Shown here piece by piece: positions 6,701-14,736 of a DNA stretch of 64,000 nt; position 1 is the first letter of the stretch, and every line of letters starts with the position of its first letter. Made by a program: the position numbers and the translations under genes. The stretch lies in contig NC_090791.1 in the NCBI RefSeq assembly GCF_040054535.1, positions 15,250,327 through 15,314,326 on the forward strand, in the 5' to 3' direction. Origin of the DNA: Antennarius striatus. Taxonomy: Eukaryota > Chordata > Actinopteri > Lophiiformes > Antennariidae. The notes under the pieces were generated by a model that worked only from the letters and a program-made list of their open reading frames with translations, was not told the DNA's origin and did no database searches.

Positions 6701-9700
6701 GACATTCCACGCTGCAGCTCAGCCTTGGCCTCCTGCTCCTCCTCAAACTGCTCTCTGAGCAGATCACAGTCATGGCGGGATGACTGAACAGCATGAGCCA
6801 AGGCGTTCTTGGCCTGATGAGCACACACTTCGTGTCAGTGATTCATTTCAAGAACCTAGGGTGCTATATGCTACATCCAAATGCTGTTCAGATAATTAAA
6901 GTACTCTGAGTGACTCCCTTTGAATAATTATTGTGTATTTTCCTACACGTGCTTTATCATATCTAAAGCATATTTGTCCCAACAGCAGTCAAACAAAATA
7001 TTCTCAGATGATTTTTCTTACTCTTTAATAGCTCCAAATTGGATCATTGGTTTTTTGATAATGGAAAAAAATCATTGTGTATTTTTTTGTCCATGTATGT
7101 ACTGCATGTTATATACAGTAATAAAAGGTGATACTCAGTGGAAAGACCAAAAAATAGCTTGTTATATTCTGAGAGTAAAAGAAATTAATTTTCCTACCTT
7201 CACTTCCTCCTCAACGTGTCTCTTAAGCTCCTCAATCTGCTGAGTGAAAGCCTGTTTGCCTCTGGTCAGCTGGGAAACAAGTGCTTCCTTCTCCTCGAGC
7301 TGGCGAGAATATTCACCTGAATGACACAATATTCATGTGTTATGAGGATAGTGTTTACATTTCTTAAAAAATTCGTCTTTTATGGTTAATGTTTCATGTA
7401 TGGCAAATCTGCCTATACATTGGTTTTAATTACAGTGTACTGACCATTCTCTGTCTGCAGTCTGGCCCTCTGTCCATTAATGTCGTTCAACTGACGGACA
7501 TTTTCATCGTTTTTGGCTTTGAGCTCACTCAACTGGTCCTCAAGAGTTCTGCACATTTTTTCCAAGTTACCCTATAAACAAAGAAGCAGTATGCATTAAG
7601 AAGATAATAATTTCAACCATTCAAATGTTTAGCATTACAATTTTATAGTAGTATATTAAAATCACTGAAATCCTCATCCTCAAAGGTTGAATCAGAGGCT
7701 ATATGACAATTTACACAAACATATTTTTTCCTAATTTAACAATGATAATTTAAGATAGTTAAGCTCTTAGGATTGCTTTATTTTAACCATTCGTATATAT
7801 CTGCCTTTGTATTCCTTGTGTGCCAAAACAAGTCTCACTTATGACAAATCACATACCTTAGCCTTGGCAACAGCCTCCATGTTGCTAGACAGGTCATCAA
7901 TCTCCATCTTATACTCGCTCTTCTCCTTCTCCAGCTTCTGCTTGACACGCTGGAGGTTGTCGATCTGCTCTCCCAGCTCTGCAACACTGTCAGCCTGCTT
8001 CTTGCGGAGAGCAGCAGCTGTGGATTCATGCTGCAGGGTTGACTCCTCAAGATCACGGCGCAGCTTCTGGAACTCAGCCTCACGCTTCTTGTTCATCTCA
8101 ATCTGAGCAGCTGTTGCTCCACCAGCTTCCTCAAGCCTCTCGCTGATCTCCTCCAGCTCCCTGGAGAGGTCAGCCCTCTGTTTCTCAACCTTAGCCCTAG
8201 CAGCCCTCTCAGCCTCAATCTCTTCCTCCAGCTCCTCAATACGAGCCTAGATTTGATAATATCAAATGAGGTATTAACTTGGAGCATGGTGGTTTTGATT
8301 CGCTGTATTTATTATCCAAGTTAAATACATTACCTGGAGCTCCTTGATCTTCTTCTGAAGCTGAGCACCAAGAGACTGTTCATCCTCAATCTTGCTGAGG
8401 AGCTGGCTGGTCTCGAAGTCTTTCCTTGATTAGGATACCAAGAACACTTTTAGTGTCACCATCTGTTTTGTTATTGAAGTTCAGTGTGTGAAATGCTGAA
8501 AAGAAAATGGAACACCCAACACAAAGAAACCCTTACTTCTTGATTTTCTCCTCAGATTGTTGTTTGTCATTCTCCAGATCCATTATGGATTCCTGGGCCA
8601 GTTTCAGATCTCCCTCAAGCTTCCTCTTGGCTCTCTCAAGGTCCATGCGGAGCTTCTTCTCTTGTTCCAGTGATCCCTCGAGCTATCAGATGAGAATCCA
8701 TGTTAGCTGATTTATGTATTCAAAAGACTTAGAATCAGGACCAAATACTAAATGATTCCACATATAAAAAATGAGAAAATTAAAATCAACTTCACCATAT
8801 AAACAAATTCAAAATAAATGTTGTCATACATCATCCACTTGCTGCTCCAGCTTTGTCTTGGCCTTGGTCAGAGTGTTGACTTTGTCTTCCTCTGCCTGGA
8901 GGTCATCCAGTGTTTGCTGGTGGCTCTCCTGGAGGGCCTTCTTCTCCTTGGTCAACTTGGCAATAGACTCATCTTGAGATGCCATCTCCTCTGTCAGGTT
9001 TTTCACCTAGAGTCAAGGGACATGTTAATAAGTCCCATCACATTATATTGTGTTGCATATACAGTATATATTAACAAGTGTAGTTTAGAGATGATTTGAA
9101 CCTTGTTTTCTGTGGCATGTTTCTCCTTCTCCACTTTAGCCAGGGTAAGCTCCAGGTCATCAATGTCTTTCTTCAGCTCAGAGCATTCATCCTCCAACTT
9201 CCTCTTCTTGGCAGTCAGCTCAGCATTGATTTCCTCTTCATCCTCCAGTCTCTCAGTTGTCTCTTTGAGTTTGGCTTCAAGCTGGATTTTGCTCTTGATG
9301 AGCCCTTCACACCTCTCCTCAGAATCAGACAGGTTCTCTACTTCCTAGCAGATTAGAGATGCAATATGGAGGTGTTTTCCATGTAAGATTTCAATATTTA
9401 GCGGACTGTGACTAGATATGCCATTTTTATGTATTCAGTATACTTAAAAAGTGAGAGTATTACTTCAAGTTGAGATGTGCATGTTTGACAAAATGTTATC
9501 AAATGCACAGTCACGAAAAGTTTCTTACTTACTGAAGCCACTTGAAGTTGCAGGTCATTCTTTTCCTGCAGCAGGGAAACCATCTTTTCTTCCAATTCCT
9601 TCTTCTTGGCCAAAGCAGTTGCCAGGTCTGATTTCATTTTATCATAGTTCTCCTTCATCTGCTGCAGCTCCTTCTCAGTCTCAGCGCTCTTCAGAAGAGG

Positions 9701-12700: not shown

Positions 12701-14736
12701 CTGCTCCTCACGCTGCTTCTGCTTGAATTTCATGTTGCCATGATGCATCACAGCGCCAGTCAGCTTGTAGATGCCCAATTTCTCCTCAGCAGTGAAGCCC
12801 AAGATGTCAATGGCAGACTGGAAAACACATCAGCTACTATTAGAGGTACATGAAACATTTCCTGTAGTATTCTATCTATTTAGTCAAAGTGTTGTCTTAC
12901 ATCTGTTGCATCAAACTCCTCCACATCATTGATGCTCTTGACAGTGATTTCACCCTGACTGATCATTGGGTAGTCATAGGGGTTGGTGGTGATCAGAAGA
13001 GCCTCTACAGAAAAAAGAGAACATATTAACATATTTTGTTCTTATCGTACTTTTTAAACTTCTATTTCAAATTTGACTAATAAGTTACCCAGGAGCTCAG
13101 GCCTGTGGCCAGTCATCAACTGATAGAAGATATGGTAGCTCCTCTCGGCAGACAGCTGGAAGGTGACTCTAGATTTCTCCAGCAGATCTATCATTCAGAT
13201 GAGAAAAGTAACATTGCCATATTGCACGTTGCTTTACAGCTGAATCTATATTCACACTCTGGTTTAAACTTACATGTTTCAATATCTGCTGAGGAGAGTT
13301 TGCCGGAAGTGCCAAAGTGGATCCTGATGAATTTACCCTAAACAGATCATTGTCAAGATTTGTTTTCGGCAATTGTTTGTTTAGGTAGTTTGCAAAATGT
13401 TTCTAGCCTTTTCTGCTATTACTTACAAAACGAGAGGAGTTGTCATTCCTCACAGTCTTGGCATTACCATAGGCCTCCAGCAGAGGGTTGGCTGCAACAA
13501 TCTGGTCTTCAAGGGAGCCCTGGAAAAGAAGATTTGAGTCACTCGAGTGAAGCAAAGCAATTTTCTTCTTGGAAATAATATTATCCTAAATAACCTAATT
13601 TACCTGCATTTTGCCAGGTGTGGCCTCCTTTTTAGCTGCTCCAATAGCTGCAATTGTTGCAAAGTACTGGATGACACGCTTGGTGTTGACGGTCTTTCCG
13701 GCACCAGACTCTCCACTAAGGGATAAGAGACACATTTTCAACATTCCACTTAAGTCTTTACATTTGTAAAGATTTGGCATCACTGTTTTATACTCACGTA
13801 ATCAGGACAGACTGGTTCTCACGATCTGAAATACAAACATGCGTGCCTCATGTGAGTTCCATTTTTATTTTTCTTCAAGAAGCTTATCTGTACATTATAT
13901 TTTACTTATTTTCAATTGTGTATTTCAACATAAACAATTTTAGTCTTACCAGTGAGCATGAACTGATAGGCATTGTCAGAGATGGAGAAGATGTGGGGTG
14001 GAGCCTCAATCCTCTTTTTGCCTCTGTATGCTGCGACACACACAGCGTCATACACTGGAAGCCACTTGTAGGGATTCACGACCACGCAGAACAATCCAGA
14101 GTAGGTCTGTAATAGTGAGTAGTATAAATACATGGTTACATAAACAAATTTAGATGTACTGTATATACAATCAATTTTGTATTATATAATCAAAACATAC
14201 GTAGATCATCCATGATGCATAACGTTCTTTGAGGTTATACAACACACAAGGTTCATTGAGGTGGGTCATCATGGCCATATCCTCAATCTTGTCATACTTT
14301 GGAGGGTTCCTGGGATGGATGTCATCCTCTTTTACAGTAAGAGACTGAGTGGAAAATACAAAAAATCACTTTACTAGGGATGCTAGTTTGATTTTGTTAG
14401 TGTCATTTGAAGTACTATAACAAATACATTGTTCACGGAACTAAATGTTAATATTACACTGAACAGAAATGTTCTTAAATACAAATCAATTGAGCAGCAT
14501 TGTTGAAAAGTATTAAATAATGAGCGGCTTACCTTTCCACTATCGGTGTCCACTGTAGCTTTGCCACCCTCTCTTTTGACGAGTTTACCCTTGAGGTACA
14601 TCTCATCAGTGTCAGCCACAAAGAAGGCGGTTTTGGCATCAAAAGGAGCTGTTTGAGCCTCAATCCTCTCCTTCTCTGTCTTGCGGAGGTAGATGGCCGC
14701 TGGGCCATAGGCCTCCATCTCTGCGTCTGTGCTCAT
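3729..14736 (-). CDS. Fast skeletal myosin heavy chain, gene A
   Basis: Muscle myosin II heavy chain, the actin-activated ATPase of the sarcomeric thick filament; it pairs into a two-headed dimer and binds essential and regulatory light chains. I traced 39 coding exons from start ATG 14734-14736 to stop TAA 3729-3731. All have GT-AG borders and sum to 5,811 nt, 1,936 aa, the usual length for fish fast myosins. The order is N-terminal SH3-like region, P-loop GESGAGKT (residues 179-186), loop 1, switch I NDNSSRF (about 238-244), switch II DIAGFE, lysine-rich loop 2, SH1/SH2 cysteines, IQ neck, and a coiled-coil rod from about residue 840 ending GGDSAE. The start agrees with the conserved MSTDAEM opening. 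The fast skeletal class is from family likeness; the exact orthologue name cannot be fixed here. No frameshift or broken splice site was seen. Confidence 0.95.
4274..4830. repeat. Near-identical tract shared with 17873-18431
   Basis: Exons 39 to 37 and both introns between them are nearly identical in genes A and B (offset about 13,600), with one 2-base indel and scattered substitutions. The intron beyond exon 37 is unrelated in the two genes. Confidence 0.85.
6316..6813. repeat. Near-identical tract shared with 20234-20731
   Basis: Exons 31 and 30 and the 91-bp intron between them match almost completely (offset 13,918); two substitutions were seen in exon 30. Intron sequence on the high-coordinate side is unrelated. 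On the low-coordinate side it is alignable but clearly diverged. Confidence 0.85.
7846..11578. repeat. Near-identical tract shared with 21381-25119
   Basis: From the intron beside exon 27 through exons 27 to 17 and into the edge of exon 16, genes A and B are almost the same, base for base. This includes introns such as the 529-bp one at 10256-10784. The differences I saw are a handful of substitutions and small indels, for example a 6-bp duplication near 22625. The offset is 13,535-13,541. On both sides similarity in the introns stops abruptly. Confidence 0.9.
9914..14736 (-). other. Gene A exons 3-21 (motor domain and IQ)
   Basis: Exon borders from splice sites: 14533-14736 (coding part), 14201-14344, 13950-14106, 13798-13825, 13604-13715 (P-loop and loop 1), 13427-13519 (switch I), 13274-13337, 13089-13187, 12901-13004, 12679-12817, 12484-12602, 12224-12373 (switch II), 11964-12134, 11574-11880 (actin-binding region up to loop 2), 11194-11261 (loop 2 lysine cluster), 10994-11081, 10785-10902 (SH2 and SH1 cysteines, [11 protein letters not shown]), 10132-10255 (converter), 9914-10050 (IQ motif). 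The sizes 157, 28, 64, 99, 104, 139, 119, 150 and 171 match the canonical vertebrate sarcomeric exon series as I know it. Confidence 0.9.
11945..13004. repeat. Near-identical tract shared with 25544-26603
   Basis: Exons 15 to 11 and their introns are nearly identical between A and B (offset 13,599). The block ends at or within exon 11; the next exon and the introns beyond are clearly diverged. Between this block and the previous one lies a diverged island (11579-11944 against 25120-25543). Confidence 0.9.

Follow-up and report, generated by a model that had tools for sequence, protein, structure and literature searches.

Two tandem fast-skeletal-type myosin heavy chain genes of Antennarius striatus have very probably exchanged sequence through recurrent non-crossover interlocus gene conversion between old paralogues. 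The genes, g1 and g2, form a head-to-tail pair on the minus strand, g1 to the left of g2, within a 64-kb window (NC_090791.1, positions 15,250,327 to 15,314,326; 64,000 nucleotides, with no N). Comparison of their exons (E) and introns (I) demonstrates a statistically significant mosaic of near-identical and diverged blocks, a common low divergence of its two main tracts, A and B, and intergenic DNA that has not been homogenised. The parts of the mosaic, in window positions and with divergence at synonymous sites given as dS, are as follows.

3732..14736, minus strand: g1 coding sequence, fast-skeletal-type myosin heavy chain; 39 coding exons (E3-E41), intact, 1936 amino acids
17513..29222, minus strand: g2 coding sequence, right-hand gene of the myosin pair; intact, encoding 1936 amino acids in 39 exons
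13005..14736, minus strand: 5' portion of g1 (E3-I10), diverged from g2; dS 0.57 in its exons, introns near shuffle level
11945..13004, minus strand: tract A, running from E11 through base 19 of I15; its 1060 bases show 5 substitutions relative to g2 25544-26603
11579..11944, minus strand: island, the rest of I15 and E16; placed by base-level differences
7846..11578, minus strand: tract B, beginning 5 bases before the end of E16 and ending 11 bases into I27; placed by the base-level list and blastn
21381..26603, minus strand: g2 partner of tract A, island and tract B; placed by blastn and base-level comparison
6814..7845, minus strand: diverged stretch, the rest of I27 to I29; E28-E29 dS 0.36
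6295..6813, minus strand: tract C, a smaller one, spanning E30-I30-E31 and extending into I31; of 507 aligned bases, 2 are substituted
4836..6294, minus strand: diverged to intermediate stretch, the rest of I31 to I36; dS 0.10 in E32 and 0.19 in E33-E36
4305..4745, minus strand: patch D, in which I37 and I38 match at all 190 aligned bases, with one 2-base gap; E38 has 3 differences

Central tracts and the island between them

Blastn self-comparison of the window aligned g1 7846-11916 with g2 21381-25461 at 98.8%, identity dropping on both sides, and g1 11945-13190 with g2 25544-26812 at 94.3%. In part-by-part alignment, E11-E15 with I11-I14 were 98.8-100% identical, and everything from I16 through E27 was 97.7-100% identical, with a single-base gap in I16 and in I22 and a 6-base gap in I23. 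Over the 3732 bases of tract B that align with g2 21381-25119 there are 11 substitutions, none of them among the 312 aligned bases of I16. An earlier note on this DNA had described near-identity over exons 27 to 11, long introns included, as a single block. The description holds for 15 of the 16 introns within E11-E27, all at 97.7-100%, and for the example it named (10256-10784 against 23796-24324), which is I19 and matches at 528 of 529 bases; it fails for I15 and most of E16, so that the block resolves into two tracts of indistinguishable age split by an island, accompanied by older patches at E30-I30-E31 and at I37 and I38. The tract introns are AT-rich, with a GC content of about 0.31-0.34 by block. 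Silent divergence is low throughout (dS 0.015 in E11-E15 and 0.008 in E17-E27), and of the 56 differences among 1935 aligned residues of the two proteins only two fall in these exons, where two residue-changing substitutions lie in E23.

Within the island, I15 measures 83 bp against 141 bp, its first 19 bases being identical and the remainder unalignable. E16 differs at 19 of 307 bases, every one within 11800-11579, which yields four amino acid differences. Silent divergence of the E16 island was no different from that of the 5' flank (14/69 vs 73/263 codons, P = 0.22) or of E28 (P = 0.11), and the island therefore looks like sequence that was not overwritten. Positive selection was considered as its origin and showed no sign, the nonsynonymous divergence (dN) being 0.021 against a dS of 0.25. 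At the four differing residues, g1 shares the residue of one mammalian MYH4 at three and g2 at none, which indicates that g2 changed more there and says nothing on which gene was overwritten. The two genes share the first 80 bases of E16 (11801-11880) without a difference, even though the rest of this exon and most of the intron before it have diverged; these bases may be a small separate patch or reflect constraint on an actin-binding segment.

Outside the tracts, the earlier observation that introns do not align and exons differ just beyond the block was borne out. Between 7 and 19% of bases differ in E3-E10, and E3 alone reaches a dS of 0.9. Ungapped identity in I3-I10 and I27-I29 was 69-87%, compared with 70-91% for one shuffled copy of each, with I7 and I8 showing a larger aligned fraction than their shuffled copies. 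Intron identity is far from the uniformity that would have spoken against a mosaic, ranging from 97.7-100% down to about shuffle level.

The g2 model is an exon chain with an uninterrupted reading frame and splice sites assessed by score, built on the exon lengths of vertebrate skeletal myosins; its C-terminal exon was added after the chain model and its end trimmed to the stop. The g1 exons were mapped one by one from g2, and inspection of the sequence supplied the small last one; mapped exons have AG in front (the start exon E3 excepted), GT behind and an open frame, and the stop codon occupies 3731-3729. Full motor, neck and coiled-coil rod are present in both genes in the conserved vertebrate exon layout, that of human MYH7 serving as reference. 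Exon lengths agree in 37 of the 39 coding exons, E7 and the C-terminal E41 each differing by one codon. E7 encodes loop 1, according to a study of teleost fast skeletal MYH clusters (PMC3869912). Searching residues 1-895 of g2 alone against PDB returned Myosin-4 as the top match (1649 bits), Myosin-7 as the next other full-length chain (1536 bits) and smooth muscle myosins at about 935 bits, among the best 60 of 95 matches. On this basis the pair is classed as fast-skeletal-type sarcomeric myosin heavy chains (class II), the searched part of g2 being nearer to fast than to cardiac/slow or smooth muscle types.

Statistical support and the graded 3' half

We analysed 1816 codons able to vary silently, 142 of them variable, using 100,000 permutations. 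E18-E27 contains 507 consecutive identical codons (P = 1e-5, with 0 of 100,000 permutations reaching this), E11-E15 contains 195 (P = 4e-5) and E30-E32 contains 108 (P = 0.017), the longest identical run over all shuffles being 216 codons; the mosaic described earlier therefore exceeds chance. Synonymous differences number 5 of 512 in block exons and about 137 of 629 in the other exons (Fisher P = 5e-32, E16 omitted from both), which agrees with the argument of the earlier note that one duplication would have given even divergence. Segmentation penalised by the Bayesian information criterion, applied to the 1816 codons with segments of at least 12 sites and without use of the borders proposed before, yielded eight segments. 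A second run that included 20 hand-picked, alignable introns out of 38 also gave eight, with the 3' borders somewhat shifted.

Towards the 3' end the picture becomes patchier. I30 is identical at 91 of 91 bases, and dS is 0.046 in E30-E32 and 0.08 in E37-E40. Since 3' values are intermediate, exchange probably recurred. In the E37-E39 region (4274-4835), eight exon differences stand beside identical I37 and I38, the inverse of the usual pattern. Several tiny tracts could have produced patch D, as could exon-sized conversion from a third myosin.

Age, mechanism and rival explanations

Pooled, tracts A and B differ at 16 of 4792 aligned bases, or 0.33% (95% confidence interval 0.19-0.54%), a level that may be close to that between alleles. 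Their divergence does not differ between the two (P = 0.37), and the differences inside A and B are unclustered (Kolmogorov-Smirnov P = 0.70 and 0.29, respectively); both may therefore stem from one episode. At 0.0098, silent divergence of the exons in the tracts is about 58-fold below the 0.57 of E3-E10.

We propose that g1 and g2 are old tandem duplicates, with a silent divergence of about 0.57 where least touched, and that they exchanged sequence repeatedly. In the latest round, E11-E27 of one gene would have been overwritten by the copy in the other gene, leaving either two tracts of the same age or one tract patchily repaired, with I15 and most of E16 staying as recipient sequence. Earlier, smaller events may have produced the older patches at E30-E31 and I37-I38. 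Copying presumably proceeded through break repair templated by the neighbour 13.5 kb away, and its last round appears to be recent. The tract edges may lie near exon ends because the introns beyond had drifted too far for pairing; those of A and B fall 0, 19, 5 and 11 bases from exon ends, a closeness that arises in part because old introns reveal an edge.

Several points weigh against this reading. About 26% of positions sit within 20 bases of an exon end, and edge proximity is accordingly weak support. The 3' half is graded and lacks a clean two-state pattern, and in E37-E39 six silent differences in 79 synonymous sites contrast with the identical I37 and I38 (Fisher 5.6e-4, a single-comparison P). 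The two genes were compared within one assembled sequence, and assembly error keeps a small probability.

The earlier note had ascribed the overwriting to gene conversion or unequal exchange, with no visible direction. Conversion accounts for the pattern. A single unequal exchange is at odds with it, as neither flank is homogenised. The upstream flanks of g1 and g2 share only short weak matches, the best being 64 bp at 72% (expect value 1.7e-4), and comparison of the downstream flanks returned nothing better than an expect value of 0.099. Non-crossover conversion is therefore preferred over a single unequal crossover, which would homogenise everything on one side, intergenic DNA included. A more elaborate version, in which misaligned copies in a larger array, a now-dead third gene among them, gave hybrid genes sharing blocks, would draw on the remains of a third gene, which imply that the array was formerly larger, and on the unequal exchange in tandem myosins described for stickleback in PMC12776057. 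With two internal tracts around an island it would have to supply four edges by several exchanges, and we consider it quite improbable.

An assembly artefact, with the middle of both genes built from reads of one, deserves attention because 99.7% identity over kilobases is in the range where short reads collapse. The tracts are nonetheless non-identical, with 16 substitutions, small indels and the two residue changes in E23; a diverged island lies inside, there are patches of other ages, both frames are intact and the window is free of N, so this explanation likewise has only a slim chance of being correct. Strong constraint in place of exchange is scarcely credible. Both the motor and the rod of myosins evolve under high constraint, but silent sites and 15 AT-rich introns are alike as well, exons that encode other parts of these two proteins reach a dS of up to 0.9 (E3), and no Rfam family was found at the gathering score in 1-37000. 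The same search gave no match at that threshold for an RNA gene within the introns, a candidate that we rejected.

A further proposal, which we hold to be unlikely though less so than the rivals above, is that a lasting division maintains the mosaic. Diverged introns would act as barriers and restrict exchange to islands of homology, so that lever arm and S2 are homogenised again and again, whereas E16, the tail and the N-terminal motor (E3-E10, loop 1 included) remain gene-specific; exons such as E16 and E37-E39 would be re-diversified by exon-sized conversion from a distant third myosin. Such re-diversification would account for identical introns beside differing exons.

Telling donor from recipient would take orthologues, in line with the direction being invisible as noted before. 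Base composition failed to separate them: GC content at third codon positions (GC3) and in introns is comparable between g1 and g2, GC3 differing most, by 0.06, in E28-E29. Distance to one mammalian MYH4 failed too, with E3-E10 sharing 235 and 232 of 300 residues, about equal. Relatives sought with E27 of g2 in viral and genome contig sets gave 80 and 560 pattern matches, respectively, none of which was a relative by tblastn.

Comparable loci, a decayed third gene and the neighbourhood

A 1992 paper, going by its title, reportedly described this process for myosin genes, in chicken. Gene conversion among tandem myosins is thus already reported or proposed in print, and the present locus is a well-supported new case of a known process. 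In the preprint PMC12776057, which cites McGuigan 2004, the fish myosins compared, those of the stickleback MYH3C tandem cluster among them, fall into groups by species. Its authors name either independent expansion or extensive conversion as the cause, and attribute small deviating regions in the copies to gene conversion. The likeness lies in tandem fast myosins for which conversion is invoked. In stickleback there is recent copy-number growth of a 17.6 kb unit, whereas here there are two genes plus traces of a third, and homogenisation affects an internal stretch; the named neighbours also differ, being SYF1-type and CAMSAP-type here and NLRC5, SYT19 and CALB2A there (PMC12776057). Tandem fast skeletal MYH genes likewise form the teleost clusters A, B and C of PMC3869912, where the separate exons 40 and 41 seen here are reported for teleosts and also for human MYH3/MYH13, and so are not fish-specific. 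Our literature search, from whose coverage subscription journals mostly fall outside, recognised no publication on this locus, and we claim no absence.

In this pair of motor proteins, partial concerted evolution can be followed clearly from one exon to the next. Gene trees of g1 and g2 will disagree depending on the exons chosen, and the protein differences between them are almost confined to the N-terminal part, E16 and the tail. If diverged introns do block conversion, such pairs would make their role as barriers testable.

Two relics lie downstream of g1.

841..924, minus strand: exon 40 relic from a third myosin gene, now decayed; one piece matches at 75% over 59 bases and another at 87% over 31 bases; blastn expect value 2.6e-6 for the main piece
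1436..1474, minus strand: exon 16 relic of the same decayed gene; 87% over 39 bases; blastn expect value 9.9e-7

They share the strand of g1, are collinear in order and lie 0.5 kb apart. Among 1000 random copies of 1-3690 with its own neighbour-base frequencies, none reached either relic, the best scoring 34.0 bits against 44.0 and 41.1. Because the exon 16 and exon 40 relics stand in order, the array probably once held at least three genes, and their short spacing implies that most of the third gene was deleted or decayed past recognition. At 3002-2868, tblastn matched the junction of E13 and E14 (expect value 0.016), but the intron expected of a genomic relic is missing there and the match was not counted. 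In the blastn search that gave the relics, the best matches elsewhere in the window were weak and exon-like, at 42379-42438 (E40, expect value 0.007) and 50343-50369 (E37, 0.010). By eye, long TA and TTA-type repeats lie beside the relic exons, at about 1150-1310 and 250-350.

To the right of g2, a Pfam search with eight open reading frames, seven of which matched, identified a SYF1-type gene (HAT_Syf1 in reading frames at 37.6-40.2 kb), the gene named XAB2 in vertebrates, and a CAMSAP-type gene lies at 51.6-61.3 kb. Between the myosin genes and the SYF1-type gene, two open reading frames on the plus strand (32696-34614) match Pfam RVT_1 and are probably a retroelement fragment.

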